Shown here one piece after another: positions 22,651-53,709 of a stretch of DNA of 64,000 nucleotides (positions are counted from its first letter, which is position 1; each line of letters begins with the position of its first letter). Source of the stretch: Medicago truncatula (lineage: Eukaryota; Streptophyta; Magnoliopsida; Fabales; Fabaceae); contig NC_053044.1 in the NCBI RefSeq assembly GCF_003473485.1, positions 31,252,091-31,316,090 of the forward strand. Reading direction: 5' to 3'. The translations under genes were made by a program, and so were the position numbers. A model generated the notes under the pieces. The model was not told the DNA's origin and searched no databases. It was given only the letters and a program-made list of their open reading frames with translations.

Positions 22651-23480
22651 AGATTTTGTTGGGATTGCATGGGGACCGGAGAAGAACTTTGTAAGAAGAA
22701 TAATCAAACATAAGATTGAAATAGTGTATCATAAAATATGAATTAGATTGGCATCTATTGTTAGTGTAAAATAAATTTATGCTTATTATATAATAATTAA
22801 TATGTAAAATAAGATTATGTTGTCATCTGACTATAAGCTAAGACGGTAAGTATAGTCACCTCTTTTGAATCGAATTAAAAAGATGAAAAATGTATTATTG
22901 GTTGGGAGTGAAAAAGAAAAAAAAAAAGAAAAAAAGAATAGTTACATTTACAATGCATGAAAATCAATCTTAATGTGTGTTTGGATACCACAAAAATTGT
23001 TGACTTAACTTGATTTTAGTATGTTTGATAATTATGGATTAGAGTTAATTTTTTTTTTTTTGCTCTATAATTGATTATAACATGAAAGTGAGATTTTTAG
23101 TTTCTTTACTCTAAACCTATACACTTAAATTTGTTGTTCATTCACTTTTACGTGAAAATATACACATACAAATTATTTTACCTTAAACTGTTAAAAAAAG
23201 AACTAAAATTAATGTTACAAATCAATTAATTCAATTAAAATCTAAATTATACTAATTCAGTTTGTATCACTCTAAAACCAAAGACACATTGTTAAAACTA
23301 ATTTTTTTTATTAGAAAAATCATGGGTTCATGGTCATCCCATTTGACCTACACACACCTTGTAGACATTTGAGTATGGGGCTACCAAATTGAGGTATTGC
23401 TTTTTAGGCACATTGCAATTTCTCATAAAAAACACAAAACTACTGAAAATGCCCACAGATAGTTGACAAAATCAGAAGTG
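22651..23480. other. 3' flank of GST gene 2 and spacer
   Basis: Transcript end and AT-rich spacer. Nothing else was recognised before the promoter of the first ncRNA gene. Confidence 0.5.
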
Positions 23481-23635
23481 AGAATATGAAAAAGGGTGGT
23501 GTAAGTAACATTTTTACCTTTAGCTCCTTACATTCCCAACCAACCAAGCAATTTGATAAAACTAAGCCCAGAAAGCACAAACCCTAAAAATCCCTCTTCC
23601 ACATTATAAATACCACTATCCCAACTCTCATTCAG
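23480..23635 (+). promoter_or_regulatory. Promoter of ncRNA gene copy 1 (site II, telo-box, TATA)
   Basis: AGCCCA (23565-23570; site II TGGGCT on the minus strand), telo-box AAACCCTAA (23579-23587) and TATAAATA (23605-23612) lie in order. An upstream block (GGGTGGTGTAAGTAACAT) is shared with copy 2. Site II plus telo-box is a known plant combination in promoters of ribosomal-protein and snoRNA genes. Confidence 0.65.
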
Positions 23636-23945
23636 CTCAAAACCTCATAGTCATAGTGTGCCGTTTCACAAACCCTCTCTAATAATTCACCTAGATTAAT
23701 TTTTTTCACATTCATATTAGTTTTATAGTCTTTTTTTTTTTTCTTCATTATCATATTTATTTTAGATTGTTATTGTTATTTTAGGAAGTATTAAACAAAT
23801 TCGTGCACAATAAGCCGATGGTCTGGAATTAAGAATGAAGGAATCATTGCTGTGTGCACGAAAATTAAATTTTAGGTCCGCATGTCTGCCCTCTATGATC
23901 TTTGATTTGATTTTAGGGCCTGGTAACGACCTACATTTTTTTCTC
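23636..23945 (+). ncRNA. Conserved hairpin ncRNA gene, copy 1
   Basis: The conserved core is a hairpin at 23802-23860 (CGTGCACA pairing with TGTGCACG, plus an inner GATGG/TCATT stem). It is followed by a block (GGTCCGCATGTCTG) and GGGCCTG directly before GTAACG at 23923, a likely splice donor. Copies 2 (28.7 kb) and 3 (41.5 kb) share this core. No long ORF exists; a short one starting MKESLLCARKLNF (ATG 23835) is shared with copy 2. Downstream intron sequence of copies 2 and 3 is not recognisable here. This may belong to the GUT15/CR20 type of plant non-coding transcripts, but that is a recollection I cannot confirm. Transcript start and end are estimates. Confidence 0.55.
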
Positions 23946-24780
23946 GTTTATTTTATCTAATTCTCTTCTCTTGTTTGTGTGATATATCTTTATTCATTTT
24001 AAAATTATTCATACTTTATAGAAAACTTCATTTTAAATTTTGGGTTAATAGTGATTTTACAACCAAAAATTTCCGCTTGGTCGTCCCTCCTATCTGCAAG
24101 AAATAGCGTTTGTTTGTCCACACAATTGTTGTGGCATTGTGAGAAATACTCACTTATAGTTATAGTATTGTATTCTTACAATTCCGCAATGATTATATGG
24201 ACAAGTAACTGAACTGTCAGCGGATTTTAATCGAGAACCATTGAAATGTTGGTGTTTTAATACCTTCAAGGGGCTCTTGATATCATGTTTTCATTTGTAG
24301 TATGAGAAATGTTAGCCACACTTATTAGTTGTTTTTCAATACATTTTATGTATTTTTTATTTTTTGAAGGAATACATTTTATGGATGAAATCAATGGATA
24401 ATTAAGTGGAATTTATTTCTTAAGTATGAGGCCTACTATGATTTAAGTCAATTAAAAAAATTAGATGTTGAAGAGAGTGTTGTTAACATTATCCATAACT
24501 TTGCATATGTGCCCCTAATTTTCTAGGCAGTGTTGAGAGCAATACTACCGTTCATTAATTTAATTTTATAAAAATTATTAATTTATAAGAAAGAAACACA
24601 ACTTTCAAGATTTTTTTAACTTTCATTTAATTTTTGTCTTTACAATATTTAGTATTTCACAAATTTTTATGAAGGTATATTTGTAAAAATATTCAAAAAA
24701 ATTACAAGTTTGATATTTTTATATTTTTCTTCTTCTAAACATTTAAAAACTTTTTCCTTAAGGCTCTATTTACTAAACAT
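23946..24780. other. Downstream flank of ncRNA copy 1
   Basis: Presumed intron or 3' part of the ncRNA gene, then AT-rich spacer. No gene was recognised. Confidence 0.4.
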
Positions 24781-24789
24781 AGTGGATGA

Positions 24790-26310
24790 ATTAATGTATA
24801 ATTTATAATAAAATATTAACAAAACAAAAAACGTAGGGGACAAAGCCCCACCAAGAAACTGGATTAAGACTCTCAAAGGAGTGGAGTCATTGCAAACATC
24901 TCTAATAATAGAGTTATCAAATAAAAAGGAAGGTGCAGAATTATAAATACAAACATTGTGGGGATTGAAACCCTCCCTAGCCATGCATGCGGTCAGCTGC
25001 AACATTAGCATCTATGCAGAATGTTTGGCCTTCTAGTTTTGAGTCAAATTCAATGGTGAAGATTGACATACCTCTAACCTTTGTTATTTCAAGACTTTTT
25101 AAAATTGCCCAAAGTTCAGAATTTGCTATTTCAAGACTTTTAAAAATTGCCTAAAGTTCAAAATATACAACAAAACATTAAACCAATGTAGTCTCTAGCA
25201 ATCCCTCCCGCAGACAACCCTGCTACCATAATCCTTCATGGCTCCATCACAATTTAATTTGACAGTACCACAACTAGGAGGGATCCAGCTTTGAATTGAT
25301 GAATTAGCGATGTTGTTATTAGACTTAGGAATCATGAGATTCAATTCAGTCCAAGCCTCTTTGATATTAATGACCATAGCGTGTTGATTCGGATGGTAGA
25401 AGTCACAACATTCAGGATTATGTTATTGAAAATATAGTTATTTCTAGCTCACCAAAGACAATCCACATTAACTAAACTATGCTCCAACCCTCAATATCCA
25501 TTCTAGAAAGGTTTCAGAAAAGTCAATGTTGCATATCACCAAAGTTATAAAAATTTGGAGATGTGTTGCCAAGAATTTTCTTCCAATGTTGTGTGAATAA
25601 TGGGCTCTGGTTAAACGTTACATATGAGGCGCTTGCCACTTCCTGATGCACTTGTAAAGATGGGGAATGGCTAGAAGGGGAATGGTTAGCATGGGAGAAT
25701 TTGCCATCTGGAGACCTTGCCCAGGCCAGAGAATCAACTAGCGCTTCAGAGTGAGGTGCTGGTAAAGATCAAATTTACTCTATGATGTAAGGAGGGAGGA
25801 GACTTGGAAGCAAACTAAGGTTCTAATCTCCTGCATCATTTGCAAACTCCTTGAGAGTCAACATAACATCATCAATCGTAATTGGCAGGTTTGTATGAGA
25901 GTTTAGGGGGACAGCGTTTGGAACTCACATATTGCTCCAAAAATTAATGTTATCTCTTTGACCAATTATCCATATTAATGTTATCCCCAACTTCTGCATA
26001 TCTCTCACCACAGATTGGAGCCAACTTGAAGGATTTGAGGCATGATATATGATTACCACGTCTATATTTAGCTTTAATGATTTCGACCCAAAAAGCATCC
26101 ATCTTATGACTCAAGGATCATCCCACCTTCATCGTAGCAGTGAGATTCATATCGCGAGCAATTATGAGCGCCAAGTTCCCCAACTCTCCGTAACTCTTTT
26201 TGGGTGCAAATGGAAGCCCAAGAGGTGATGATGAACATATCATATGCTGCACCTTCTGAGATTTAGAAAACTCCATAGATATCACTAATTTTTTTCGATT
26301 TTGACCATAG
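24790..26310 (-). mobile_element. LINE (L1-like) fragment: zinc-binding and RNase H-like C-terminal part
   Basis: On the minus strand the translated pieces follow the order of the C-terminal part of plant LINE polyproteins. They are DAFWVEIIKAKY (about 26105-26065), WARSPDGKFS (about 25720), WIPPSCGTVKLNCDGAMKDY (about 25290-25225) and ELWAILKSLEITKVRGMSIF (about 25125-25060), the last two from the RNase H-like domain. The reverse transcriptase core is missing. The frame is broken in several places, so it is a dead 5'-truncated copy. Confidence 0.75.
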
Positions 26311-26950
26311 CTTTATACTGATGAACCCCCTTAAATTCACTAATATCCAACAGGTTATGGTGTTTCACCCTGCCATATGTTGCCATATTGATAAATTACG
26401 GTAGCACTACCCATCACCCCACTAAGAGCATAAACATCGGTTGTCTTAAGGGTGTTTTCGTCAAAACCAATAGTACTTTGTGAGGGGTGCATGGATAATT
26501 CACGTTCTTTTTATAGTTCTTATTAAGCATCGTGGTTCAACAAGGACACAATTCCTCTTTGACAATTCACTGTTGGCCATACACATATTTTATTTTAATT
26601 AAAACACTGAGATTTTATATAAAATATAAATACAAGGTATAGTATAATATTTAGTGAGACTTCTTTTAAAGTTTTGAAGAGTGTTATGAATATTTAAAAA
26701 ATATGGTTGGTTTGTTTAAATATTTTGGAAGTGTCACTACCAAAAAATAATAATTTGAAAGTCTGAAATAATGTAAAAATATTGGTTGTGGTCCATTAAA
26801 ACCACCAAATAGAGTATCATGGATTTGTATGCTCTAATAACACTTTTCACACACACGCACACACATTTTCCGGTCCTTTTCTTATCTTTTCTTTTTCGCT
26901 TAACACGAATTTTCCGTTCTTCTATTCTATGTTTAAATAAATATTAATCC
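26311..26950. other. Intergenic, no gene seen
   Basis: Continues upstream of the LINE piece; it may include more decayed LINE sequence. A short CACACA run lies near 26850. Confidence 0.4.
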
Positions 26951-27080
26951 TTATGAGCATAGTTCAGTTGACAGGAACAATGCATTGATATATGCATAGA
27001 ATGAAGTTTGAACCTTGAACACGCTACTTATTCATCTTAAAAGACGAATTCTAGTCATTAGATTACTTGACAAAAAAAAA
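26950..27080 (-). mobile_element. SINE-like fragment
   Basis: On the minus strand, a T-run is followed by GTCAAGTAATCTAATGACTAG (box A-like) and AAGGTTCAAACTTC (box B-like), as in the intact SINE at 13139. Target duplications are unclear. Confidence 0.5.
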
Positions 27081-27114
27081 GGGTATTAGAGTACATTACA
27101 AATTTTCAAAAAAA

Positions 27115-27640
27115 AAAAAAAAAGTGGAAACTCTCTCTTTTGCATTTCTCTCACTCTTGTGAGCCGTCACCGAAACCCTAATTTCTTCTTCATCCACCAA
27201 AGAGGGGTGATTTGGGGTCAATTTTGACCTAAAATCACCCATCTAACTTGGTTTCTCTCTATCCATTCTATTGAAATAAGTGTTTTTCACATCTATTCCG
27301 TTTTTGATTTTGTGATTTTTTTGTCTTAGTGCGACGTTGGTTTGTTCGGAGTAGTTTGTCTTTCTTGTTTTGTTCATATATTTGTTTGATTCAGATTGTC
27401 AGATCAGCTTTGATCTAGTGCAGATCTAATCCATGACTTTGGCGTCGTCCACGCTGTAGATCCGGAGACACGGGTATTCCGGAGACTTGAATGTGATCAC
27501 ATGTGTAGTCTTTTGTATTTTGTCGTTTTATGCTATTGACATGGATGTTGTGAGTTTGTTCGCAGATTCATTCTTTTTGTTTTTAGCGAATTAAATTGTA
27601 TCGATGTACTCTATCAATTTAAATGAATAAATATCATTTA
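27115..27640 (+). repeat. Dispersed repeat family R1, copy 1
   Basis: About 500 bases align with 52262-52727 in the same orientation. Shared blocks include GTGAGTTTGTTCGCAGATTC (27552 and 52627), TGATTTTGTGATTTTTTTGTC / TTTTTTGTGATTTCGTCGTC, and a TATCAATTTRAATGAA end. It opens with TCTCTC and AAACCCTAAT stretches like a leader. No long ORF. It may be an untranslated end of a LINE or an undescribed short element. Confidence 0.6.
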
Positions 27641-28390
27641 TTTTGTCAAAAAAATTATTATTTTTTGATAAATAAAACAAAACTTATATTTGTTGTTGGT
27701 GCACAATTATTTTTCCTTTATTTCATTATTATCATAATCTTCCATGGCTGGGTTTGTTTTAATTTATATGTATGTAATTTTTGCCTTTATTTCATTGTTA
27801 TTGCTATTGCAATTCCATAGATGACAATTAAAGTATGTATGTCTTTTAAAAGAAAATAATTAAAGTATGCATATCCCCTAAAAAAACTAAATCAAAGTAT
27901 TTATGTAAATAATTTTTTTGAGTATTTAATTTTCTAGGGTGGTATATGAAAAAGGGGATGAAGGTTTCTGGATATGGATATGAAGAAAAGGTGTGTTCAT
28001 GGAGATTGGGCATGAATAGTGAAGAAGAGAATGAAGAGAATGGAGGAGGTGTTTTGTTGGAAGAGAATGAAGAGATATGAAGAATATATGTGTGTTAAAA
28101 AAGGATGAAGATTTGAAGAGTGAAGAAGATGAACCTTTGAAGAGTCAAGAACATTCAAACATTTTATTTTTAAAAATAAAAAATTTCCTAAAACTAATAT
28201 CAAAGTATTGGTAAAAAAAAAACTGTCAAAGTAATTTATGAGTTTGTGTTTGGATGTAAGAGATCGTTGAGGATAATAAAATTATAGAAGACAATTTGAT
28301 GTATATGAAAAATTAATAGACTGATAAATTATTATAAAAAAAAAAAAAATATTGTTTATTATGAATGTGGGGGTGTAAAAAGTATTTTAG
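27641..28390. other. Intergenic with a purine-rich stretch
   Basis: 27950-28140 is strongly GA-rich on the plus strand and contains a 44-codon frame starting MKKGMKVSGYGYEE. There is no supporting homology or context, so I do not call a gene. Confidence 0.4.
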
Positions 28391-28394
28391 TAAT

Positions 28395-28560
28395 GTGAAT
28401 GTGTAAAATGGGTGGTGCAAGTAACATTGTTTATTTGACATTGGGCCAAACTTCATAAATTCCAACCCGAAACAATTTAAGCCTTAAGAAGCAGTCAAAA
28501 CCCTAAAACGCTCTCTGCCCTTCTATAAATACACTAAACTAGTTCCATTCTTCACAACTG
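28395..28560 (+). promoter_or_regulatory. Promoter of ncRNA gene copy 2 (site II, telo-box, TATA)
   Basis: TGGGCC (28442-28447), AAACCCTAAA (28498-28507) and TATAAATA (28524-28531) lie in the same order and at similar spacing as in copy 1. The upstream GGGTGGTGCAAGTAACAT is also shared. Confidence 0.68.
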
Positions 28561-29160
28561 TGGCCACTCTCTCACTCCCACATTCGTTTCACTAACTCGC
28601 ATCCAATTTTTCTTTTGCTTAGCTTATGAATTCATGTTTGTTCTATTCTCCTATAAGATCTTTCATATATTAAAATTATTATCGTTAATATTGTTATTTT
28701 TTATTTTTTTTCGAATTATTAGTGAATTCGTGCACAATAAGCCGATGCTCTGGATGAAAACAATGAAGGAAGCATTGCTGTGTGCACGAAAATTGAATTT
28801 CTTAAGGTCCGCATGTCTGCTCTCTTTGATCTTTGACTTGATTTGAGGGCCTGGTAACGACCTATATTTTTATCATATCATTATTAATTATTTGCCTGTG
28901 ATGTATGAATATTGTCCGTACCATCTGAGAGATTATTCTTTGATCGATACAATAATTCTTGAATCTGAGGCTTCTTCATTCATTTCTGTTTTGATTGAAA
29001 TAATAGGCAACAATTTAGAGTCTCTGATTTGCTTATACTATAGTGATTTCAGTGCTGTACGTTGCCGATAATAATTGGAATTGATAATTTTTTGCATCTG
29101 TCTCCTTAGGCTTATGCGTTATGTCTTTCCTACAACGTAAAAATTTTATTTAGTACATTA
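28560..29160 (+). ncRNA. Conserved hairpin ncRNA gene, copy 2 (most complete)
   Basis: This copy keeps the promoter, the hairpin exon (hairpin 28729-28788), the GGGCCTG exon end with a GT donor at 28854, and an intron to a pyrimidine-rich acceptor ending CCTTAG at 29109. Exon 2 starts GCTTATGC. The intron carries a box C/D-like unit (28894-28971) and a second hairpin, GGCAAC (29006-29011) with GTTGCC (29061-29066); both are also found in copy 3. The longest frame is 33 codons (28745-28846, MLWMKTMKEALLCARK..). The layout fits a non-coding snoRNA host gene. Ends are estimates. Confidence 0.62.
28894..28971 (+). ncRNA. Box C/D snoRNA-like unit in the ncRNA intron
   Basis: A terminal stem GCCT/AGGC (28894-28897 and 28968-28971) encloses box C-like TGATGT (28899-28904), D' CTGA (28925-28928), C'-like TGATCGA (28941-28947) and D CTGA (28965-28968), in correct order and spacing. 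Copy 3 (41615-41703) keeps the stem, box C, D' and the stretch before D, TACAATAATTCTTGAAT, unchanged. The RNA target is not identified. Box C deviates at its last base from RTGATGA. Confidence 0.55.
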
Positions 29161-29480
29161 TGATTTATTATTGCTTATATGTATTGAGAAAAAAGAAATT
29201 GTTATCAAATTCATGAAAAAAGAAAAGACATTTTGATCTGTACAATTGATTAACGTAGATGGCCATATTCATCTCTTCGACCAAAAAAAAAACCAAACTT
29301 AATCATGTGTTCATTCCAAACAAGCATCACCACACTTTATTCTTCTCTTCTAACCATATTATGTTCACAAACCTAGATTTTTTTTAAATAATTAAATAAA
29401 TCAATATCAAATCATTTAAAACTTCAGACTTGCATTACAAAAACCCAAACATCAACGGAATATGTGGATTGAAGTAACTT
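29161..29480. other. Downstream flank of ncRNA copy 2
   Basis: AT-rich; nothing recognised before the LINE fragment. Confidence 0.4.
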
Positions 29481-30175
29481 TTGAAGAGTGAAAAGAGAAG
29501 GGTTGATTCTAAGTGGAAGGGAGCACAAATTGCAAAAATTGAAGTGCTGTATCTCAAATCATTGTTAAATGTTTCTTTCTCCGCAAGTAATTCTAAGTTG
29601 CCAGCCAGTTCTGTCATTAGGGAATTTTCTATCCTAAAGGCTTTCAATGTTTCAATCCACCCTCCAAAGTTGCTTATAGTGATGGAAGTCGTCTGGAGTC
29701 CCCCAGTTTCGGGATGGATTAAAGGTAACTGCGATGGAGCTTTTGCTGTAGGGAAGGCAGTATGTGGAGCAAATTTTAGAAACTCTAAGGGTTAATTCAT
29801 GGGATGCTTTGCAGAAGGTCTGAACAATGGTAGTGGTTCAAGCTTTCAAGTCTCAAGACATTATTCCTTGGCAGCTAAGAAAAAAAATGTAGTAACTGTC
29901 TTAATATGACTTCAAGCATGAATTTCATAGTTTTTCACATCTCTTTAGGGAGGGCAATGCTTGTGCAGATGCTCTTGCTAATATAGGCTTAACTCTAGAT
30001 ACTTATGTGTATTATTACTCTTCACCTATATAAGTAAGGAGTGATTATCTTAAAAATAGGCTAGGTAGAGCTACTTTTTGGTTTAATCACTCTTGAGAAG
30101 GTTTAAGTGTTATCCCCCTTCTTTGGTTAATATACTAGGGATAATATCTCCTTGCTACTCCTTGTTTTTTAAAAA
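29481..30175 (+). mobile_element. LINE fragment: RNase H-like domain and 3' end
   Basis: VVWSPPVSGWIKGNCDGAFA (29688-29747) matches the start of the RNase H-like domain of plant LINE polyproteins. FREGNACADALANIGLTLDT (about 29946-30005) matches its C-terminus (EGNxxADxLAN). The frame is interrupted between them. An A-run at about 30171-30179 could be the tail. It is a 5'-truncated, dead copy. Confidence 0.72.
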
Positions 30176-30431
30176 AAAATTGCAAAAATTAAAGTAGAGA
30201 AGGTTGAGAGGGTAAATGGTTTAGATTGGTCGGTTGGAGAAACAAGTATGTGAAGCAAAAATTGAAAATGAAAATGATTTATACACTCAGTGTGCCACAT
30301 AAGCATACTTGCACTTCTTTACATTGTTATTATCAAAATATCATACGTGGAGTATTATGAGTGAACCAAATTGGTTTTTACATACACGGGGGCGCGCGCG
30401 CACAGTCTCTCTCTCTAAATTTGTGTTACTA

Positions 30432-30639
30432 CTCTCTCCGTCTCAAATTGTATGTCGTTTACAATATTAATAAAACATTAATGTTATTTTTCCTATCATA
30501 TCCTTAATTATTTATTACTCTCTCTTCTTTTAATTCTTTCATTTATCTATCACATATCATTTAGTAAGGATAATTTTGTAAAACAACTCATAATATCACT
30601 TTCCAACACAAAATGTCATACAATTTGGGACGGAGGGAG
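30432..30639. mobile_element. Stowaway-like MITE
   Basis: Ends CTCTCTCCGTCTCAAATTGT and (inverted) CTCCCTCCGTCCCAAATTGT lie between TA dinucleotides (30430-30431 and 30640-30641). 208 bp, no ORF. A relative lies at 44946-45191. Confidence 0.85.
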
Positions 30640-30960
30640 TATGATTTTTTTTAACAGGTACTAATATATGTTCTTTGTGTATAACATGCCATTCTTATGA
30701 TAAATGTATCAGTAGAATAATTGATTACTTTACATCATCATATTGAGTTTAGTTATAAATGTATTTTTTTTAAATGACAAAATATATTGAACCTACAATA
30801 GTCTATAGCACAAGAAAAACTAAGCCCGGTTCATAGAGTCATATATAAATCTAATAAAAAGAAGGATACTCACAAAAATAAATAAATAGTTAATACATGC
30901 AAGTTGTTGTAATATATTATTATATTTTTTTTATATTGATGACATAGTTTTCCATATCTT
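30640..30960. other. AT-rich spacer
   Basis: Nothing recognised. Confidence 0.4.
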
Positions 30961-31360
30961 ATATCAGAGAACAAATCATTTGAGGTTGTTAAAAAAATAA
31001 TATGTAGGAGAATTATAATTTGAAGTGTGAGAAAAACTGATAAGTGTTATAATATTATAACATAAGTATAAAATTACCGGCTTAAAAGTAACATAATAAC
31101 TAATTTTGAACTTATTTGGTAAAGATATTCTAACAGGCAGTAAGGTTGAAAAAATAATATGATATGCCTGAATTGAAGGACAATGTGATATCTCCAAATT
31201 TAAGACAGAGGAAGACAATCTAAATAATAATATTTTATTTTTAATTTAGTTTCATTTTTCATCTTAGACTACAATGTATAATTACGTGGTCCGTGAATAC
31301 AATAAAATAACTAAATAAAAACTCATTGAATTTTATAGTAGAATCTTAAGGGCACATCTG

Positions 31361-31660
31361 TCACGTACATGTACAATAGTTCTGTCTATTGTACATCAAA
31401 AAATATGCCTCCACACACGTTGGTTTCCAAGGAAACGTGCATATATATTCTGGACAATCAGAATCTTGTTTACATTTGCGACCTGTTGTAATGAAAAAAA
31501 AGAGTAGAAGAGTGTTATTAAAATGAGATAAAATATTATGTAGGAGGTAATTAAGGAAATTTAAAACATTCAAAAATGGATTACCTTCAACGTTCATTGA
31601 AACTAAAAATACGGAAATAAAATTAACCATAACATAAATAAATTTGATAATTTCAACCAT
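31361..31660 (-). CDS. Nodule-specific cysteine-rich (NCR / late nodulin) peptide A
   Basis: NCR peptides are secreted into the symbiosome of nodule cells and drive bacteroid differentiation. Two exons (31660-31585 and 31482-31361) join in phase 1 with a GT-AG intron of 102 bases. The 65-residue precursor starts MVEIIKFIYVMVNFISVFLV, the classic Late_nodulin signal peptide. I chose this ATG from that signature although upstream in-frame ATGs exist. The mature part has six cysteines, spaced C-x5-C-x4-C-x7-C-x13-C-x1-C, and ends YCTCT. The intron between signal and mature part is typical. A TATATATA lies upstream at 31715-31722. Expression would be expected only in nodules (family knowledge). 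Confidence 0.9.
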   Translation of the reverse strand: MVEIIKFIYVMVNFISVFLVSMNVEGNPFLNVLNFLNYLLHNILSHFNNTLLLFFFITTGRKCKQDSDCPEYICTFPWKPTCVEAYFLMYNRQNYCTCT

Positions 31661-31714
31661 ATTTTCTTCCATGTGCATGTAAGAAATAAAATATGATTTT
31701 ATCAATTTATAATC

Positions 31715-31722
31715 TATATATA
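31715..31722 (-). promoter_or_regulatory. TATA box of NCR gene A
   Basis: TATATATA lies about 55 bases before the chosen ATG. The upstream block to about 32200 is conserved in the two sister segments. Confidence 0.5.
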
Positions 31723-32214
31723 GCTTATCTTCTCCTTACATACATTAAATAGATTTTAGTGCTAATGGAGTTGTAAGAAAATGTCTCCTGGATACATCAA
31801 AGTGTCGTGTTTTTCCTTTAACATACTTATTAAACTTTCCCTCATTCTTAAAATTAGAATCATTATTAAATGTCTTTAAAATATATAACAACATTGTATC
31901 TGTCCCTTTCACATACTAGGTAAAGAGGTCACATGAAAAACTTAACATTCATAAGAATTAATTTTTATTTTTTCCAAGTTTCAATTATTTTTCATCCTTT
32001 CACTTGACGGAAAAGGGAAAATTACAAAAGAGGTATAATATTGTTGGATTTCAAGTGACTCGTAGTTTATAGTAGAGCTATAACTATTGCATAAGTTAGA
32101 TTTCAAAGTCACAAATAATTGATGAAGGTAGTATGCAAAGTTTATGATTGACTCAGATTGATGGAAATGCATGCAGTAGCAACCCAAATTTCTAAACCCT
32201 ATAATGATTATACC

Positions 32215-33093
32215 TAGGGGCGGAGCCAACTTGTATCCTGGGGATGCAGCTGAACCCCCTCACCCCTTTAATTTATTACCAATTACCAAGTGTTTTTCTA
32301 TCATGAACCTCCTAGAAAATAAGATTTGCACCATCTCTCCTGTGACCGTAAAAGTTGCACACATATTACATCATGTTGTTCAATAAGATAGCGTACACCT
32401 ATTGACTCTTTCAATTTAAGGCTAACATTAATCTTTTCTATTGACTCTTTACTTTAACGTGTTACTAGTTTACTTGCTTTTAAGTTGTTATTAGTTTACT
32501 ACTTCTGCACATCCTAAAACTTAGTATTTTAAAATGACTAGATCACTACATCAAACTAAGAACAAGATATATATTGTACAACATTCCTATATTTTTATTT
32601 TTTTTTACTATTTCTATTCCTTATATTATTTTTTAAATTCTTTTTTACTTTTTCTAGAGACTATTTCCTGTCTAATATTAGTGATATTTCTGTTATATTA
32701 TGGATGTGCATATCAGTGTTAAATTTGTATCTTTGAAAAAATAAAATGATCTTTAAAAAAAGAATTAATTGAAACTAAAAGACGTATTGTTTATCCATTC
32801 TACTGTGAAATTTTTGAAAACTAGATTAAGTATGTAATCAAAAGGAAGATGAATTGACGAACGATTGTCTCGTGACATATTGAAAGAGATATATTCGACA
32901 ACATTGATAAAGAGTTTATTACTCAACAAATCCATAACATGAAATTGGGTAGAGGACAATTGTAATGTATGTTTGCAATTTTTTAAGTACAATATAATTT
33001 TTTAATAAATATAATTTTGTATATATTATTATAATTATTAATTAAAGTTTTAAATTTTGAACCCCCTACCCCAGAGTCCTGACAACGCCACTG
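32215..33093. mobile_element. Non-autonomous hAT element, 879 bp
   Basis: The ends are TAGGGGCGGAGCC and, inverted, CAGTGGCGTTGTC. Perfect 8-bp duplications ATTATACC lie at 32207-32214 and 33094-33101. The sister segment B has the uninterrupted site (AATGATTTTACCACGTG, about 45560-45576), which proves the ends. No transposase frame was seen. Confidence 0.9.
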
Positions 33094-33366
33094 ATTATAC
33101 CACGTGCAATGTTTACATCGTCACTAACCACAAAGAGGATGAGAGAGGAAGCACATCCAATCAAACACAAATCTTATTGTTTCCTTTTAGTAAACCATGG
33201 ATGAAATTGCCTTATATATCATATCAATGTTATAACTACAATTTATTCATTTGTTCTTACGTACTATGATTAACTAGTAAACTAAAATTTATTTATTTTG
33301 TCACTATAAGCCTTTTAGTAAACCATGATGATGTACCAATTGCATGTAACGTTTAAGATATGTGTT

Positions 33367-33501
33367 ACATAAGCATAACTCAATTGATAGAGACATTGTA
33401 TAATTTATGCAGGGGTTGGGGTTCGAACTCCGGACATCCCATTTCTTACATTTAAATGTGTGAGCTCTAACCACTAGGCTACTAGACAAAAAAAAAAAAA
33501 A
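33367..33501 (-). mobile_element. tRNA-derived SINE
   Basis: On the minus strand, a T-run is followed by GTAGCCTAGTGGTTAGAG (box A-like) and GAGTTCGAACCCC (box B-like). The flanks 33358-33366 and 33502-33510 are both ATATGTGTT. Segment B lacks the insertion (near 48380). Confidence 0.85.
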
Positions 33502-33689
33502 ATATGTGTTTAAAATCATTAATTAGGTTTAACAAAGGAATATGTCATGTGTACTATAAGATTTGTGCAAGTTAAAAGTTTGTAAGACAGATATAGATAA
33601 TTTTTTATAACAAATTTAAAATTATGTAATTGTTGTCAAAAGGCGAAAAAGAAGTTTTAGGTGACAATTCTACTTTAAAAATTTACTTT

Positions 33690-34008
33690 TTGTTTTTTTA
33701 ATTTTTTTTATAAGGACGCTACTTTTTTTAACAAATAAACATAATAATTATATGGCATTGAGGCATGATAATTAAGAATATAATATTCCTTTTCTGAGTG
33801 TTAACCCTCTTGTTCGCAATTTAATTTTGCATCTAATAAATTTTTGAATAAAAGTTGCTAGAAAAAATTTGAAAAATAATTTTCCTTTTCTAAGTGTTAA
33901 CCCTCTTGTTCGTAATGTATTTTGGAGTTTGACCGAGAGATAAATAAAGTCTAACAAAAAGTTATTTCACCCATATATCAAATTTGGGTTCTTCTGAATG
34001 ATTGATAG
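33690..34008. other. Spacer with a short direct repeat
   Basis: A unit with TTTCTRAGTGTTAACCCTCT and a following TGTTCG occurs twice (about 33790 and 33890). No gene. Confidence 0.5.
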
Positions 34009-34017
34009 TATTTTCTA

Positions 34018-37000
34018 GGTTTATTAGATCGTTTGATCCCTTATTTAATTTCATGTTTTCATTTTGGTCCCACAATTAATAAATATGGCGTTTTAGTCCC
34101 TCACCTTTTCCTCCGTTTGCCAAATAAATCCTGACTGTTAACTTAACTTCAAATGTCTATGGTAGACCAATTTTAAAAGTGGTCCATCGTAGACCTTATT
34201 AATTTTGTTAATTTTAACTATTCGATCTATTTATCATAAAATGGACCGTTAGATCTTCACTTTACTGTTCTTGATCTTTATAAACTAATGCTAAAAACGT
34301 GAAATACCTTGAATACCCCTAAAGCCAAATTAAAAATCCAACTTTCTTTCTCTTCTTCTTCTCAAACGTGATCTGATTCCTTCTTCATAAACCCGGACAA
34401 ATCTTCTTCTCATAAACAGCACCACCACCACTCCGATCACCACCGTCACCATGCCGTCAACCACCACCTTAATCCTCCTTACACTGACGGCTCTGATATT
34501 CAAGATCACCACTACCACCGCAACACCAATAATCAGCCTCGATTCCCACCTAACAACCCAATCCCACACCGATCCAACAGCCACAACTGACACCTTCACC
34601 ACTCTCCCCTCCCATTTTCTTCGACAGATCTAAACACCTCTTATCTTCATAAACCCAAACGCAGGAGCAACTGTAACGCTCTTATTTCTATTTAAGCAAT
34701 TAAACATGCGAATAATACATTTATTCAAGAAATAGAGATTACGTCTTATTCAAAATTCAAAAACCGATAGACATGTATATGAACTTCAACAGTCGCAGCG
34801 GAATATAAATCAGAGTGATCAAATATATACATGCCATGAGCAAATAAATCATGTCTCAAAGATAAATCTCAAAACTCAAACATACGGGTAGTCATCAACA
34901 AAATCATAATCCAACGGAAAATATAAACAACCTAATCTAGACCGACACGACAAGCCTAGATCAGAGCCGACACGACCCGATATCGGAGAAAGCTCCCGAT
35001 ATCCCATGCAAAGACTCACCGAGCACTACTCCTTCACAACGTCTACTCACCCATACAGGCAAGTAGGCGGTTAAAACCACTGAGGGTAAGCATTACATTA
35101 TCATAATCCAGATAATAATCAAATCAATTAATATCATGTACTTGAATAATAATAGTCATGCACAAATACTTATATCACAACTTGATAGTTCATATCCACA
35201 TATATCAATCACATGAATAATTATTCAATCATAAATATTCCTTCACAACAACAATCATTATCATCATTCATTCATCTCAATTCATCATCAATCACATATT
35301 TCACATAGGACTCATGCTATGATATGCACTTATTGACTCATAAATGCATGTGGTACCAAATCTCAACAAGGTCGTCACCTTTCGATGCCACTTGCACATC
35401 GAATGTAAGGGCTCACACCTGCCTTACAATAATCTCGAAGTAAAAGAGTCATCCCTTTTACAGCAACAACGACTATGATGCATGGACATGTGTAAGGACT
35501 CGATAATGCGACAACAATTCACAATCTCAACCTCAATATATAGGACAACACCCAATTATATTGATTATCTCCACATCATTGCATTATCAAGAAAACATGC
35601 CCATACACAAATAAATCATAGTATTCACCATCATCACATTAACATGATCATCAATAATCCACAATGTTATTCAACATCAACTATCACATATAGTTCACCA
35701 ATTCGGGCATTCTCATATTCCAAGTAAGAGGGAAAACAACATCTCATGATAAATATTATATTCAACATCTACAGTTCATCATACATAAACATGATTATCA
35801 ATAATCAACAATGTCATTCAACATTATCATTCACACAATTTCACTTAACCATATGAACATTTCACCGTACCAACTTGAAACGAAACAATCATAAACAAGT
35901 TAAAACAATTAACCAATCTTAATCGACAATGTATACATGAAATAAAGTCGTCTTCGGATCATCAACATTAACCCAAGCACAACTTAAGTTCATAGAAAAA
36001 TCTCATTTTCACAACCTTTCACTTCCCACCCGAAATATCATTTTTACTTTGATTAAGATATTGACCACCCTTGCAAGCATCACCTAAGTCTATATGAGCT
36101 GTAGGTTCACTTGCAAGCCTTATTAGATTACAAAATTTGTTTTCGACAAAGTTTGGAATTCTCAAAATTTCACAAGTCAAGACTCATTTAAAAAATTACA
36201 AGTATATGCAAGCAATCATTGTTCCAGTAGGTTTTGGAGGATTAACAGTGGTTAAACATTTTTAAGACATCATTTAAGAAAACTCGGATTGGCCCCCAAA
36301 GACCCGGAACAAAAGATCAAAGTGGCTGAGACTGGAGCTGTTCGCTTAAGCGACCACCTGGTTCGCTTAAGCGAACAAGTTATAGTAGCAACTCACTTTG
36401 TTCACTTACTTGCTCGCTCACAGTTCACTTAAGCGAACTGAACCCAGAAAAGACTATGAATGTTCGCTTACCAGGTCTCTTAAGCGAACCTCTAAGCGAA
36501 CCTTCACAGGTTTGCAGAAAAAGTTATGGGTTTGGAACCCTTTCCACTCAAAATTATATCTCAAACCATCAACACATTCACATTTCCAAATACATAAATG
36601 CATACTCAATTGTTCACTCTAAGTACTTCATTAAACACAATATCAAGTTTGGAAAAGTTCCACAGCTCAAAGAAAAAGTTATGATAAGTTTTCACAAAAA
36701 TCCACATGACCCATGTGTAGTAATTTAATCATATCTCAAGTTCTAATAATTATTTGGACGTCAAACCAAAGTCATTAGAAGGCTAACAAAATTATCTACA
36801 ACTTTCATGTTTACTCCAAAGTCCAATTCAAAACAGAAACGTGTGAAAAAGACACAAGAACGCGAAATCAGAAATGCTGTCAAAAGGCATTTCGCTTAAG
36901 CGAACAGTTCTTCTCTTCACCTCTTCTCTCCCTACCTCTCCTTCTCTCTATGAAAATTGTTTTGTGAAATGAATAAACATTCTAAGACAACCCTACTGTT

Positions 37001-38057
37001 ATCCCCCTTAATGGGCTTAACTCAAAATTTTAATGGGCCTAACCCATCCTAACACAATTCAAAAGTTTCTATTCAAACCGCGGTAATAACTAACAACGGT
37101 AAAATATAACCCACGGTTACTAACGGTAAAAACTAATTACTACACTGGTAACTTAGTAAAATAAGGGTTCTCACTAATTAATAAAATAATTCTTACCAAA
37201 TTACCATTTTACCCTTACCCGCCAAATGACCAAAATACCCTTCTAATACGGCAATCCCCTTAAATGCACCCGATGACAATAAAATACACACAATCACAAA
37301 TAATCACATAATAAAAGTAATTAAATAAAACTAGCTAAAAATCGGGCTGTTACAGCAACCACAAGAGAAACGGAAGAGAGACGACAACGCCGATGTCGAA
37401 TCTTCTCTTCACACTTCGGTAGCGCTGGCGTTTTCCCCGTCTTTAAACACCTTTTTGTCTTCTCTTGTCAGTGATGAAAATGTTGAGAATGTTGAAAGGG
37501 AAAATGGATTTTTGTTAAAACTGTGATTGAGAAACTGTGAATGTTGAAACTGTGATTGTGAACTTGAGACTGTGATTGTGAAACTGTGATTGCAGAAACT
37601 GTGTTGTTGTTGATGTTGTTCACAACAATTTTTTTTAGAGAGAAAAGATGATTAGAATTTTGATGATGATAATTTTCTTTTTATGGGTTTTTTTACCTAT
37701 TATTTTTCTGGGTTTGTTTGTATGAACTTATGATTTTGTTTGTATGAATATGAATATGATTGATGAAGATGAAAATATAGAAGATGAAGAAAAAGAAAAA
37801 AAAATTAGGTGTTGGTGGTACATCGTAAGATAAAATAGACTTGCCTAATCCAATAGTTCTCTTTTTTTTTTTTAAAATCAAACAGTTAAAATTAAAATAA
37901 TTATTAGGATCTATGGTGGACCACTCTTAAGGTTGGTCCACCATAAACATAATTTAGATTAAACTTAACCATCGGAATTTATTTGACAAACGAAAGAAAA
38001 GGTGAAGGACTAAAAAGCTATTTTTATTAATTGTGGGACCAAACAATTTAATAAACC
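34018..38057. mobile_element. Mutator-like foldback element carrying a solo LTR
   Basis: The left end GGTTTATTAGATCGTTTG and the inverted right end GGTTTATTAAATTGTTTG continue inward for well over 100 bases (paired GGTCCCACAATTAATAAA, TTTAGTCC, TGGTCCACCATA-type blocks). The flanks 34009-34017 (TATTTTCTA) and 38058-38066 (TATTTTTTA) are 9-mers with one mismatch. Without the inner 2.7-kb LTR the element is about 1.35 kb. Its interior is low in complexity (34380-34620 is very rich in CACCAC) and no transposase was recognised. Confidence 0.78.
34672..37355. mobile_element. Solo LTR, probably Ty3-type, 2684 bp
   Basis: It starts TGTAACGC and ends GGCTGTTACA, with perfect 5-bp duplications GCAAC at 34667-34671 and 37356-37360. 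No internal retroelement sequence lies between, so it is a solo LTR left by recombination. It carries several TTCGCTTAAGCGAAC palindromes (36340-36500 and 36890). Large size and TGTAAC..GTTACA ends suggest an Ogre/Tat-like Ty3 family; that assignment is inference. It is a fossil inside a DNA element. Confidence 0.8.
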
Positions 38058-38066
38058 TATTTTTTA

Positions 38067-39230
38067 TATTCTTGAATGTGTATGATATATTTTGAATCAC
38101 TATATTATAAAATTTGTACAGACTTTTACATCCAGTTTTTAAATATGATTGCACTCGCTGTTTGATTATGGAAAGATCCAATATCAATAATATCATGTAT
38201 TATTGCTTATTGAATTCCATGTACAAATTCCATATTCATTCATTAGGTTGTGATATTGATAGAAAAAATTAAGATGAGCTGTAATAACATAAAAATATAA
38301 AGAGACATGATTTTTAGAACCTCGTCGTTTTTTTTTTTTTTTTTTTTTTTTATAAATAATCAACTTACCAAGATCTCGTAGAAAAAATAAGTATCTCATA
38401 GGAAACCTCATCAAACAAAGCTAAAAAAATAGTCTACATCAAAAATAAAAATAACGAAAACTAAAATGATTCACATCAAAATAAATAGCATCGATTATTC
38501 CAAGAAAACATGGTTTTTCATAAATTACATATTAATGCATCCATCATAACCATATACAGGTAGAACAGACATGAATCATACTTTACATCGTGAACAAAAA
38601 TTGTTAAACATGTATAACTTGCATGACTATCTCCATAATTTTTTCAAATGGATTAATCTCAAAGATGTTATCAGATTTTAATGAGATTGTATTTTTTTTT
38701 TTTTTTAATTTAGTAAGAATGTGTGAATGGAATAGGCAAATGAAAATGAAAATGGTGCAAGAAAGAACAACTACATATAGAGAGGAAAAAACTACCAAAT
38801 TACTTTTTTTTTTTCATTTTTGAGAGAATAAAATTACATTTGAATCCCTAATTCTAACACATAGTGATGTCATGATGAAAAAATGACACATGTTAGAATC
38901 TGATTGACTTACAAATCAAACTATGACATGTTATAAATTGATTGGTTTACAATTTAAAAAGTGACTCATGATACAATTTTATTGCCCGAAGTTTGTAATA
39001 AATTAAAATATCATGATTGATGAAAAATGTTGATGACATATAATTAACATTGATTACTTCATAAGTTGAAATTATTTATTTCCTTTTAATATTAGTTGGT
39101 AATTTAGGGTCCTTGTGAATTAATAACAAAATGATATAGTATAAAAAAAATCATATACATTTTTTTGGGAGTAATTTTTATAATATTATATACATTTCTG
39201 AACAATTTCATTAAAAAAATACAAAAGTTT
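38067..39230. other. AT-rich intergenic region
   Basis: No gene was recognised. A 27-base T-run lies at about 38330-38350. 38820-39000 includes repeated TGACACATGTTA-like phrases. Confidence 0.45.
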
Positions 39231-39355
39231 AATTAAAATAGGGACCAAAAGTAGTGATTGAAAATTTTATAAGGACTAAAAGTTGAAGAACTTTTTTAGA
39301 GGGACTAAAATAAAAATTTGATATATTTATAGGGACGAAAAACATATTTAATCCA
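39230..39355. repeat. Half-copy of the GGGACTAAAA foldback family
   Basis: It contains GGGACCAAAAG, AGGACTAAAAGTTGAAG, AGGGACTAAAAT and AGGGACGAAAAAC, like the right arm of the element at 10430-10715. Confidence 0.5.
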
Positions 39356-39394
39356 AAAAAACTATGTCAAAATATTTGTAAAAAAAAAATATTT

Positions 39395-40156
39395 TTCTGT
39401 AATTTGGGTCGGTTTTCAATTTCGTCCCTGTAAAAAAAAAAACTTTGAGTTACATCCCTGTAAAAAAAAAATTGTTTGAAAAAGGTCTCTGGCCCCACTA
39501 AAACATTGAAGTCGCATGGTTTTTGCCACGTTGCAGTTGCTGACTGTGCAACTTATGCCACGTGGCGCTGACATGCCATGCCACATAATATTAAATTTTT
39601 AAATTCTAAAAATTGTTTTTAAAATTTAAAAATTTTAAAAAAAATTAAAAAACCTGAAAAAAATTTAAAAATATTAAAATTATTTTCTGAAATTATTTTT
39701 ATCATATAATTTTCAATTTTTTTTAAATTATAAAATCTGAAATTTCTGAAATAAATTTTCAAAAATAAATGAAATGATTTTTTTAATTTTTTTTTAAAAT
39801 ATGAAGAAAAAAATATAATTTTCAAATTAAAAAAAATAATGGTCGAAAATTTAATTTTAACAATATTTTTTAATTATTTTTGAATTTATTTTCATATTTT
39901 TTTAATTTAAAAAAATAATTTTCAAAACTTTAAAAATAATTTTAATTTTTTAATTACGTGGACTGCCACGTGGCAGAAGTTGCACAGTCAGCAACTGCCA
40001 CGTGGCAAAATCCATGTCATATCATAAAAAATGTGGGGCCAGAGACCTTTTTCAAACAAGAAAATTTTTACAGGGATGTAATTCAAAGTTTTTTTTGTTA
40101 CAAGGAAGAAATTCAAAACCGACGCAAATTACAGGGACTAATATCATATTTAAGCC
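39395..40156. mobile_element. Large palindromic foldback element
   Basis: The arms pair over about 350 bases each: GGTCGGTTTT/AAAACCGAC, ACATCCCTGTAAA/TTTACAGGGATGT, GGTCTCTGGCCCCAC/GTGGGGCCAGAGACC, GTTGCTGACTGTGCAACTT/AAGTTGCACAGTCAGCAAC. They meet in an almost pure AT centre (39580-39950) that is itself self-complementary. The outer end GGCTTAAATATG (inverted at 40145-40156) resembles the GGCTTAA Mutator-like MITEs here. Target duplications were not resolved. Confidence 0.75.
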
Positions 40157-40690
40157 TTATTATAAAAGGAACCGCCATGACGAGTATATAGTTTTTATTT
40201 ATTGTGATTTCAAATTTGAATGATAATGTATATAAGAACTATGAAATATTTTATTTATTCACTTTAATTTTATAAAAAAATTGTATAAAAAAATTAAATA
40301 AAAAATCATTAAATAAGATAAACAATGTGAAAATGTCACGTGTACATTTTATGTTATGCAAGACAAATGTTTATAAATATATATGACATTTGTGCAAAAC
40401 ATATGTTCACAATTTTCCTCTAAAAAAATGTTTATAATTTTGAACTTAGAATTCATTGAAGTATTCTTTTGCTGTATGTAAATATTATTACCTTATTCAA
40501 AAAAATGTAATAAATGATACCTTTAAGTTAGGATATAAAAAATAGACTTAAAAAACTATTCTCAATGATATTGTCCACACTTTCTAAAGGGATTTTGTTC
40601 TTAATAGGTTAATTAATTACTGATAATAGGTAAAAAAAAAAGGGTTATGTACTTATGTTAGTCTATAATGGATTTTTCTTCATAACAACT
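40157..40690. other. AT-rich intergenic region
   Basis: Nothing recognised. Confidence 0.45.
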
Positions 40691-40694
40691 TAAA

Positions 40695-41300
40695 AGCCAT
40701 GGGTTTCCCCACTAACTTAATTTATGTGATTATGAGATGTGTCGCTTATGTTTCCTTTTATATTCTTATAAATGTCCAACCGTCTGACCCTTCCCCTTCC
40801 ATCCTGAAAGAGGTATCATGCAAGGAGACTCTTTATCTCTTTATCTCCTTATTTGTTCATGAAAATTGTTGTATGCACTCCTAACAAGGTTGAAATACAC
40901 AAGAAAAATACGTAAATATCCATCTACAGTTAACTGCCGTCGGTTAAAATTCATCGGTAGTTAACTGCCGATGAAATTATATTGATAAATTACTGATGTT
41001 TTTCAGTCAAACACTATGCGTGAACAACATTCTTTTTTGTTCATTTCGTTTGCTAAGGTCCTCTATGGGCCTATTAGCCTTTGTCAAAGCCAAGAAAAAA
41101 TTACAAGATTTCTATTGCTGAAGATGTTCATCCTATAACTCACCTATTTTTTGATGATGACATCTTGCTCTTTTGTAGGGCAGAAAAAGAGGAAGTTAAG
41201 AAACTAAAAATATTATAGATATCTACCAAAGTCACCAAGGTCAACAAATTAATTTGCATAAATCATAGTTAAGCTTTAGCAAGAATGTGGATGCAAATTT
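40695..41300 (+). mobile_element. LINE reverse-transcriptase fragments
   Basis: 40699-40790 reads MGFPTNLIYVIMRCVAYVSF, the block before the RQGDPLSP motif of plant LINE RT. About 41140-41180 reads HLFFDDDILLFCRAEKEEVK, the FADD catalytic block. About 150 unrelated bases with a TTAACTGCCG inverted pair (40930-40975) separate them. A dead fragment whose right edge abuts ncRNA copy 3. Confidence 0.72.
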
Positions 41301-41319
41301 GAAAAGTAGGATTCGTGAT

Positions 41320-41900
41320 TTTTCTATTCTCTTATCTAAGATCGTTTATATTAAAATTTCTATAGTTTTTTTTGGTAGATAGACGAGATGATAAAACCAT
41401 TATAAACTCACACACATAAAGTTGAGGTATTGGAATTCGAACCCCAATCATGACGTCCGGCCTAACAATTTCTATAGTTATTTTTTTGAATTATAAATGA
41501 ATATGTGCACAATAAGTCGATGCTCTGAATAAAACAATGAAGGAAGCATTGTTGTGTGCACGAAAATATGTCACTTATTTTATCATATCAAAATTATTTA
41601 ATTTTTCCTTATTGGCCTGTGATGTATGAATATTGTTTGTACCGTCTGAGCTGATTCTCTTTTAGAGTTCTCTGATTGGTACAATAATTCTTGAATTTGA
41701 GGCTTTTCCAATTATTAGTTTAGAATGTATAGGCAACAATTTAAAGTCTCTGCTTTGCTTATACTATAGTGATTTCAGTGTTGTACGTTGCCGATAATAA
41801 TTTGAATTGAATTTTATTTGCACCTGTCTTCCAAGGCTTATGCATTATCATGTTCGTACAACCTAGTAGTTTTACTTCGTTAGAGTTTTGTTACATTTTT
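41320..41900 (+). ncRNA. Conserved hairpin ncRNA gene, copy 3 (decayed)
   Basis: Homology to copy 2 starts near 41320, just after the LINE fragment, so the promoter is missing. The hairpin (41504-41562) is intact. The exon end and splice donor have been lost, but intron sequence continues, including the box C/D-like unit (41615-41703, D box changed to TTGA) and the GGCAAC/GTTGCC hairpin (41732-41737 and 41787-41792). The acceptor region ends CCAAG before GCTTATGC near 41835. Likely a pseudocopy. A SINE interrupts its 5' part. Confidence 0.6.
41368..41466 (+). mobile_element. SINE inserted in ncRNA copy 3
   Basis: A T-run with GGTAGATAGACGAGATG and a box B-like GAATTCGAACCCC is flanked by 13-bp duplications AATTTCTATAGTT (41355-41367 and 41467-41479). 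Confidence 0.75.
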
Positions 41901-42250
41901 CGTTAGATTATTGTTAAGTTTACTAAGGATGAGTATATTCGCTCATGGATTTGTTGATTTAGTTGAATTAACTCAGCTGAGAAGCAGACAGAGAAGGACT
42001 ATTGGAATGGTCTTTCAATATTTTCATGGTCCTTCTCACTCTCTCCTCGCTGAGTCAAATATCTTCATCATTCTTTTGTGATTCGGAAATGAAAATGGTG
42101 AACTCCTTGAAATGGTCTGCTTGGTTTTTTGCTATTAGGTTTTTTCTTCTTCTGAGAGGTGCGGTGCTATTAGATTTGTTGAAAATGTATCAGGTGTCTG
42201 CATTTTTTTTTTATCGTCTCTTATTGCTGATTTTCTTCATCATTTTATTA
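41900..42250. other. Spacer before segment B
   Basis: An 83-codon frame here (42002-42253) is hydrophobic, with no recognised signature or context; not called as a gene. Confidence 0.4.
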
Positions 42251-43215
42251 TGATCAAGTACTCATTGAAACTAGCTTGTTCTCTAAGTCATACTTATCTG
42301 CATCAAAAAGAAAAAAAAAGTGAAGAGATTTACCTTCTCTATAATGTCAAATATTCAACATTCAAAAGGCTAAAAGACTACGCTATATCTTTAACAAGAA
42401 ATAATAGCTTCACAGAAGATTGACGGAAGAAATAATTCGTCACTTGTTTAAAAATTTTAAAATTTTATGGTGAAGTTCTTATGAGCTTAAAACAAGCTTG
42501 CAAAACTAGGGAATGAAATTTAACTCGTGAAAATGAATAAAGGCTTCTTCCAATTACATCATTTCTATATATATATTTATAGATGTCAATGAAAAATCGG
42601 CTCAAAATTTGATTCCTAGCTGAGGTTTTCGTTGTTTTGTTTTTTGAGTTTTTCCAGCTTTAACGTCCTAAAGGTCATATTTATAGATATTTATAGATGT
42701 CACTTGTATAAAATTTTAATTTTCAGTAGAAAATCATATTTTAACGTCCTAAAGGTCAAAAATTGGAAGAATATCAAATTACAAGTTAGGTTAGAATAAG
42801 AGTTTACACAGTTGTTTTCCAGACTTTGTCAATATTATAGGGTTAATTTGAAAAATTAAAGTGTGTAAGAGAATTATAAATTGAAGTATGTGAAAAACTC
42901 ATGAGTGTAATAATATTATGACATAAGTATAAAATTTCAAGCTTAGAAGTAACATATCTTTTGAACTTATTTAGTAAAGATATTCTCATAAGGTTGGAAA
43001 GATAATGTGATATGCCTAAATTGAAGGACATAGTGATATCTCCAAAATTATGAGAGAACAAGAAAAAGAAAATCTAAATAATATTATTTTATTCCTTATT
43101 TCGTTTCATTCCTCTCATCTTAGAGTACAAAGCCATAATACACGGTCCTTGAAAATATAAAAAGATAAAATTCAAATTATTGTATTTTGTAGCGTAATCT
43201 TGGGGGGCACATCGC

Positions 43216-43518
43216 TCACGTACATGTACAATAATTATATCTTTTTATAAGGATCATCAAAAAATATGGCTCTACACACGTAGGTTTCCAAGGAAACACA
43301 CATATCTCCTTTGAACAATCAGAATTTTGTTTACATTTACGGCCTGTTGTAATGAAAAAAGAGAATGAAAGAGTGTTATTCAAATGAGAGAAAATATTAT
43401 GTATGAAGTAATTAAGGAAATTTAAAACATCCAAAAATGGATCACCTGGGTTGAAATTTGGGTTGCTCATTGCAACAAGAAATATGGAAATAAAAATAAA
43501 CTTGACTATTCTAGTCAT
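43216..43518 (-). CDS. Nodule-specific cysteine-rich (NCR / late nodulin) peptide B
   Basis: Exons 43518-43446 and 43343-43216 join in phase 1 across a 102-base GT-AG intron (donor GTGATC). The precursor has 66 residues. The signal peptide starts MTRIVKFIFISIFLVAM. The mature part has six cysteines (C-x5-C-x4-C-x7-C-x15-C-x1-C) and ends NYCTCT. It is close to peptide A in sequence and exon layout, with two more residues before the last cysteine pair and a different, Asn/Pro-rich junction after the signal peptide. The frame is intact. Expected to be nodule-specific and secreted. Confidence 0.88.
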   Translation of the reverse strand: MTRIVKFIFISIFLVAMSNPNFNPGDPFLDVLNFLNYFIHNIFSHLNNTLSFSFFITTGRKCKQNSDCSKEICVFPWKPTCVEPYFLMILIKRYNYCTCT

Positions 43519-43632
43519 ATTTTCTCCAATGTGCATTTAAGAATTAGAATATGATTTGATCACTTTATATTTTATAGAGCCTATCTTCTCCTTACGTACA
43601 TTAAATAAATTTTAGTGCTTATGGAGTTGTAA

Positions 43633-53428: not shown

Positions 53429-53709
53429 GGCTTAATTGTACTTTTGGAGCCCTAACTAATTTAAATACAAAACAGTCCCCTATGTTTTGATTCTTTGGCA
53501 GTTTTGGACCCCCAAGGCAAAAAAAAATAAAAATTGACACGTGGCACCTCACTTAGGGTGCCACGTCAGCGTTGACCGAGTCAACAATGGACTGGGGGTC
53601 CAAAACTGCCAAATAATCAAAACATAAGGGGCTGTTTTGTATTTAAATTAGTTAGGGGTCCATAACCGCAACTTTTGGAAAGATAGGGGTCCAAAAGTGC
53701 AATTAAGCC
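53429..53709. mobile_element. Mutator-like foldback MITE
   Basis: The ends are GGCTTAATTGTACTTTTGGA and (inverted) GGCTTAATTGCACTTTTGGA. Internal arms pair (GGTCCAAAACTGCC etc.). Flanks are A-runs that can count as a 9-bp duplication. Farther out, TCAAACCTCAAACT occurs on both sides (53401 and 53721). Confidence 0.78.

Follow-up and report, generated by a model that had tools for sequence, protein, structure and literature searches.

A very probable polycistronic snoRNA gene in tandem copies in Medicago truncatula, with a candidate H/ACA RNA

The question raised by this locus is what kind of gene lies behind a hairpin that occurs three times within 64,000 nucleotides of the Medicago truncatula genome (the window, C3:31252091-31316090 of the assembly). 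An earlier note had read it as a three-copy non-coding RNA gene family with a conserved hairpin exon, a splice donor and a promoter of the snoRNA and ribosomal-protein type, perhaps of the GUT15/CR20 kind. The three cores, designated here copies 1, 2 and 3, do lie at 23802-23945, 28729-28860 and 41504-41570 as described, and they do have a hairpin in common. When 132 bases of copy 2 serve as the query, the assembly (430 Mb, 42 contigs) yields three matches, all within the window, with identities of 100, 88 and 94%, the third covering query bases 2-65 only. Copies 1 and 2 are 89% identical over 147 alignment columns, and the snoR100 parts of the three copies, identified below, each fold better than dinucleotide shuffles (z of -2.94, -2.98 and -3.15).

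The Rfam search of the core that the earlier note had suggested identifies it as the 5' half of a box H/ACA snoRNA, snoR100 (RF01219), whose gathering score of 50 bits is reached by copies 1 and 2 and not by copy 3:

23800-23938, plus strand: copy 1 snoR100, RF01219 match over 23833-23938 with 73.9 bits, together with its fold and boxes read from the sequence
28728-28869, plus strand: copy 2 snoR100, RF01219 match over 28761-28869 with 77.5 bits, together with its fold and the guide scan
41504-41567, plus strand: copy 3 snoR100 remnant, 5' hairpin only, from a sub-threshold Rfam score of 36 bits against 50 and from BLAST

Copy 1 displays the H/ACA anatomy in full, with a 5' hairpin, a strict H box (ANANNA in the hinge) reading AAATTA at 23862-23867, a 3' hairpin and an ACA at 23933-23935, three bases from the end. 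Copy 2 also has two hairpins, its H box AAATTG (28790-28795) is not strict and an ATA (28864-28866), likewise followed by three nucleotides, replaces the ACA; in copy 3 the second half is missing. Both full copies match the whole Rfam model above its gathering score, but the unit extends 31-33 bases upstream of it: the model starts inside the 5' hairpin, and the additional bases close a GUGCAC/GUGCAC stem, which suggests that the 5' side of the first hairpin is missing from the Rfam model (compare 28728-28760 of the window). The predicted full units measure 139 and 142 nt; for Arabidopsis, passages of PMC7464842 describe a nucleolar snoR100 with reported RNAs of ~160 and ~100 nt. A search of the assembly for this family, in which the best 52 of 45256 candidates were scored, gave at least two matches over the cut-off, both in the window; such assembly-wide family counts are lower bounds because only the best candidates are scored.

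The guide strands of the snoR100 3' pocket (28813-28819 and 28850-28857 in copy 2) are identical in copies 1 and 2 and pair 8 + 7 bases (15 bp) with UUACCAGG-U-C-CAGACAU, which we take to be the 18S sequence. This fit was equalled by 0/300 shuffled guides, in a scan whose pocket borders were chosen after the folds had been seen and in which four sequences served as targets for the real guides and two of these for the shuffles, which gave the shuffles a somewhat smaller target. On the basis of this pairing, the 3' pocket would guide 18S pseudouridylation in UUACCAGG-Psi-C-CAGACAU. Three choices of the 5' pocket gave no convincing target, being equalled by 193, 30 and 85 of 300 shuffles.

The description of a three-copy family with one core element is sound as far as it goes, but it overlooked that copies 2 and 3 each contain two more RNA units, snoR117 and a unit named here X. 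The former is a box C/D snoRNA (RF01423), and both of its copies reach the gathering score of 42 bits:

28893-28973, plus strand: copy 2 snoR117, RF01423 with 67.9 bits, complementary to the LSU consensus
41614-41705, plus strand: copy 3 snoR117, RF01423 with 47.6 bits against 42, and guide scan

The search of the assembly for this family gave at least two matches, both in the window, among the best 66 of 73315 candidates scored. The copy 2 guide (28912-28923), located upstream of the D' box CTGA (28925-28928), forms a 12-nt complement to UGGUACGGACAA of the Rfam eukaryotic LSU consensus, with a U opposite its fifth base. An Arabidopsis table in PMC8053127 assigns SnoR117 to U2114 (Um2114) of 25S, and the antisense element before D' fits this assigned site, with the fifth base opposite the methylated base. 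Base pairing thereby predicts that snoR117 guides the 2'-O-methylation of 25S rRNA at the Arabidopsis Um2114 site, the target base being the U of CUGGUACGG. The guide for the U2114 site is kept in copy 2, whereas copy 3, whose score is near the cut-off, has three changed guide bases and keeps 12 pairs with the site only by including three G-U wobbles, counted by eye.

The shared promoter claimed for two of the copies (Site II, telo-box and TATA) is present upstream of copies 1 and 2:

23565-23611, plus strand: copy 1 promoter module, with Site II AGCCCA at 23565, telo-box AAACCCTA at 23579 and TATA box TATAAAT at 23605
28442-28530, plus strand: copy 2 promoter module, with Site II TGGGCC at 28442, telo-box AAACCCTA at 28498 and TATA box TATAAAT at 28524

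In the window these are the two places where Site II, telo-box and TATAAAT come together in a span of 150 nt; none of 100 dinucleotide shuffles of the window has such a combination, and the window scan found no such module at copy 3. A BLAST comparison of copies 1 and 2 shows that the snoR100 unit and a 40-base upstream piece are shared, and the telo-boxes and TATA boxes of the two copies align. According to passages of PMC4660826, this combination of elements belongs to ribosomal protein genes and to the polycistronic snoRNA genes of plants. In parts of PMC5122169, polycistronic snoRNA precursors are described as standard in plants, with RNase III enzymes making the cuts and exonucleases trimming the products. 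The locus resembles the polycistronic genes treated in these sources in the telo-box and Site II upstream of TATA (copies 1 and 2), in the close spacing of same-strand snoRNAs, in the mixture of C/D and H/ACA types and in the presence of multiple copies. The snoRNA combination found here is not named in the passages drawn from PMC4660826 and PMC5122169, and the main text of the latter does not contain snoR100, snoR117, snoR86 or snoR116.

The locus is very probably a plant snoRNA gene in tandem copies, in which copy 2, the fullest unit, is a polycistron of snoR100, snoR117 and X, in this order, behind Site II, telo-box and TATA. Of the earlier reading, the non-coding RNA gene family and its snoRNA/ribosomal-protein type of promoter are retained, while the hairpin exon, the splice donor and the GUT15/CR20 relationship give way to the Rfam families snoR100 and snoR117. 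In copy 1, snoR100 is the one snoRNA found behind the promoter; copy 3 consists of the snoR100 remnant, snoR117 and X. From what is generally known of plant snoRNA biology, RNA polymerase II would produce one precursor, which would be cut and trimmed into single snoRNAs. A polycistron is favoured by the Rfam gathering matches in the window (two for snoR100 and two for snoR117), by the promoter modules, by the fits of the snoR117 guide, the snoR100 3' pocket and the X 5' pocket to rRNA, and by the recurrence of X in a chromosome 2 region beside snoR116 and snoR86; the variant boxes of copy 2 snoR100, the weak folding of X, without covariation, the guide pockets that gave no convincing target and the short snoR117 pairing with a 25S fragment of the assembly count against it. 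The same variant H and ACA boxes, together with a copy 3 that has neither a promoter module nor the 3' half of snoR100, would also suit a reading of all copies as decayed snoRNA pseudogenes without function. This is very unlikely, however, as copies 1 and 2 have retained their promoter, their pairing and the same 3' guide strands, and no other snoR100 match passed the cut-off among the best 52 of 45256 candidates scored. With the snoRNA gene as the preferred reading, an unexplained non-coding family becomes a set of snoRNA genes that have names and rRNA targets open to testing, to which a candidate H/ACA family is added; the locus is of a known kind with new members and is ordinary for the wider field.

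Copy 3 is probably a decaying duplicate, because it has lost the snoR100 3' half and its guides are altered, and it would represent a promoterless, partly deleted copy within a larger segmental duplication in which copy 2 also takes part. In particular, pieces of 28.7-33.7 kb, holding copy 2, match pieces of 41.5-48.6 kb, holding copy 3, mostly in the same order and with one inverted. The duplication includes 30989-31778 and 42848-43634, each with a minus-strand, NCR-like signal-peptide ORF. These related ORFs (31454-31678 and 43312-43536, minus strand) each lie downstream of a snoRNA copy, and their likeness to NCR genes is presumed; cysteine scans between copies 2 and 3 revealed nothing that would be called NCR, and the signal-peptide scan returned 31454-31678. 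An NCR-like neighbour is typical of Medicago and, like the MIR2619 match described below, fits a plant of this genus.

RNA X is a 132-base unit located after snoR117 and common to copies 2 and 3:

29006-29137, plus strand: copy 2 X, H/ACA-like, from assembly repeats, a fold (z of -1.70), alignment and covariance model; no Rfam match
41732-41863, plus strand: copy 3 X, H/ACA-like, 87% identical to copy 2, with a fold z of -0.54 and guide scan

Copy 2 X has a GGCAAC..GTTGCC hairpin, an H box ATAATA (29068-29073), a second hairpin and an ACA (29132-29134) followed by three nucleotides. H and ACA boxes are present in both window copies, whose 3' ends read ACAACG or ACAACC; in copy 3 the guide bases are changed and the fold is no better than shuffles. 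Against Rfam release 15, no match overlapping X was obtained at E up to 5 in 23300-42200. A 142-base X query found seven places in the assembly, including itself and copy 3; four are on chromosome 2 (33.120-33.134 Mb) and match over 72-88 bases, corresponding to the first hairpin and hinge, and the 3' half is found at C3:35365564. In the chromosome 2 copies, too, an ACA or ATA stands three bases before the 3' end. Rfam recognises one snoR86 in each of the three loci around the chromosome 2 matches (L015-L017), and in L015 also a snoR116, and no snoRNA family in the locus around the C3 half (L018). A covariance model built on the two window and four chromosome 2 copies, which it refinds by construction, gives 47.2 bits to L018, excluded from the building. 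The single-sequence folds of both window copies are weak, as listed above, and RNAalifold predicts 27 pairs, with a two-sided change in 0/27. Box placement, the company of snoRNA clusters and a conserved guide make X a candidate H/ACA RNA.

The chromosome 2 region, C2:33119500-33134500 (L015-L017), holds snoR116, three snoR86 and four X copies, and Site II and telo-box motifs are present in L015 and L017. L018 (C3:35364800-35366400) contains, at about 763-830 on the minus strand, a dispersed X 3' half, which lacks the 5' hairpin, has an ACA-type end and is found near a telo-box-like motif.

In the 5' pocket of X, 3 + 8 bases (11 bp, one G-U) can pair with GAGC-UU-GACUCUAG of 25S, a site that we take to be the plant one and that is present in a real LSU contig (L035, RF02543, 115.9 bits); the fit was equalled by 1/300 shuffled guides. 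No convincing target emerged for the same pocket with another border (93 of 300 shuffles as good), for the 5' pocket of copy 3 (88 of 300) or for the 3' pocket, equalled by 46 (copy 2) and 89 (chromosome 2 copy) of 300. Ten entries, two of them identical, were scored in the guide scan, and beside the fits of the snoR100 3' pocket and the X 5' pocket the other seven were equalled by 30 to 193 of 300 shuffles.

Yeast 25S carries Psi2416, guided by snR11, Um2417 and Um2421, as given in a part of PMC8307265, and these fit the spacing of UUGACU, from which we infer that the X site is the Psi2416 site. The X 5' pocket may thus guide, by its base pairing, 25S pseudouridylation at this position, GAGC-Psi-UGACU. 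Yeast snR11 would be alike in acting at the equivalent 25S site (PMC8307265), a likeness of target site that implies no homology. In Arabidopsis, 13 mapped pseudouridines in 25S domains IV and V have no known guide according to passages of PMC8351944. That X is an H/ACA snoRNA family absent from Rfam, occurring in several clusters of this legume and serving as the plant guide for the Psi2416 equivalent, seems about equally likely to hold or to fail; if it holds, the guides of two 25S sites and one 18S site, three separate rRNA positions, would all come from one promoter.

The position of X also bears on splicing. In the reading as a spliced GUT15/CR20-type lncRNA, the hairpin is a conserved exon and its likeness to a snoRNA is incidental; the GT-containing GGTAAC conserved in copies 1 and 2 (23922-23927 and 28853-28858) and the AG before 29110 speak in its favour. 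However, the proposed donor GGTAAC sits in the snoR100 3' guide pocket, where it is an H/ACA guide strand whose pairing with 18S gives a reason other than splicing for its conservation, and the proposed acceptor at 29110 falls inside the X unit, its AG belonging to the X 3' hairpin and recurring on chromosome 2. Splicing there would also remove snoR117 and cut off the 3' end of snoR100. The spliced lncRNA was rejected because both proposed splice sites lie within conserved snoRNA parts and appears extremely unlikely; a GUT15/CR20-type RNA is not supported, as judged by the Rfam naming of the core. The earlier statement that no long ORF fits is borne out for the two copies scanned, where ORFs of at least 40 aa do not exceed 53 aa (copy 1) and 70 aa (copy 2). 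A protein-coding gene was likewise rejected: three ORFs overlapping the copy 1 and 2 RNAs, with 70, 59 and 41 aa, were compared with Pfam, and none matched a family at E up to 0.1.

Regarding the rRNA of this plant, a 5.8S family search of the assembly gave three matches, of which two exceeded the cut-off with 69.7 and 66.8 bits, and an intact 18S or 25S gene was not found in the assembly by the patterns used. One of the 25S patterns is presumably not the plant form and so makes a poor test; 18S patterns and a 25S pattern found nothing in viral_contigs. The complement of the snoR117 guide matches in the window and at two other places (L025 and L026), in which Rfam finds no rRNA at gathering thresholds, and the guide scan found nothing in L028 and L029. 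L030 (C2:14602791) looks by eye like a 25S end and has no Rfam match. L031 (C3:30466875) is a degenerate 25S fragment with 160.5 bits, the Rfam consensus of which was used for the snoR117 pairing; as this fragment is itself changed, its pairing with the copy 2 snoR117 guide is limited to 7 nt.

Elsewhere in the window, at 53470-53637 and 40909-40985, MIR2619 matches above gathering and MIR2629 matches below it occur, each on both strands; these are near-perfect inverted repeats, possibly derived from transposons.
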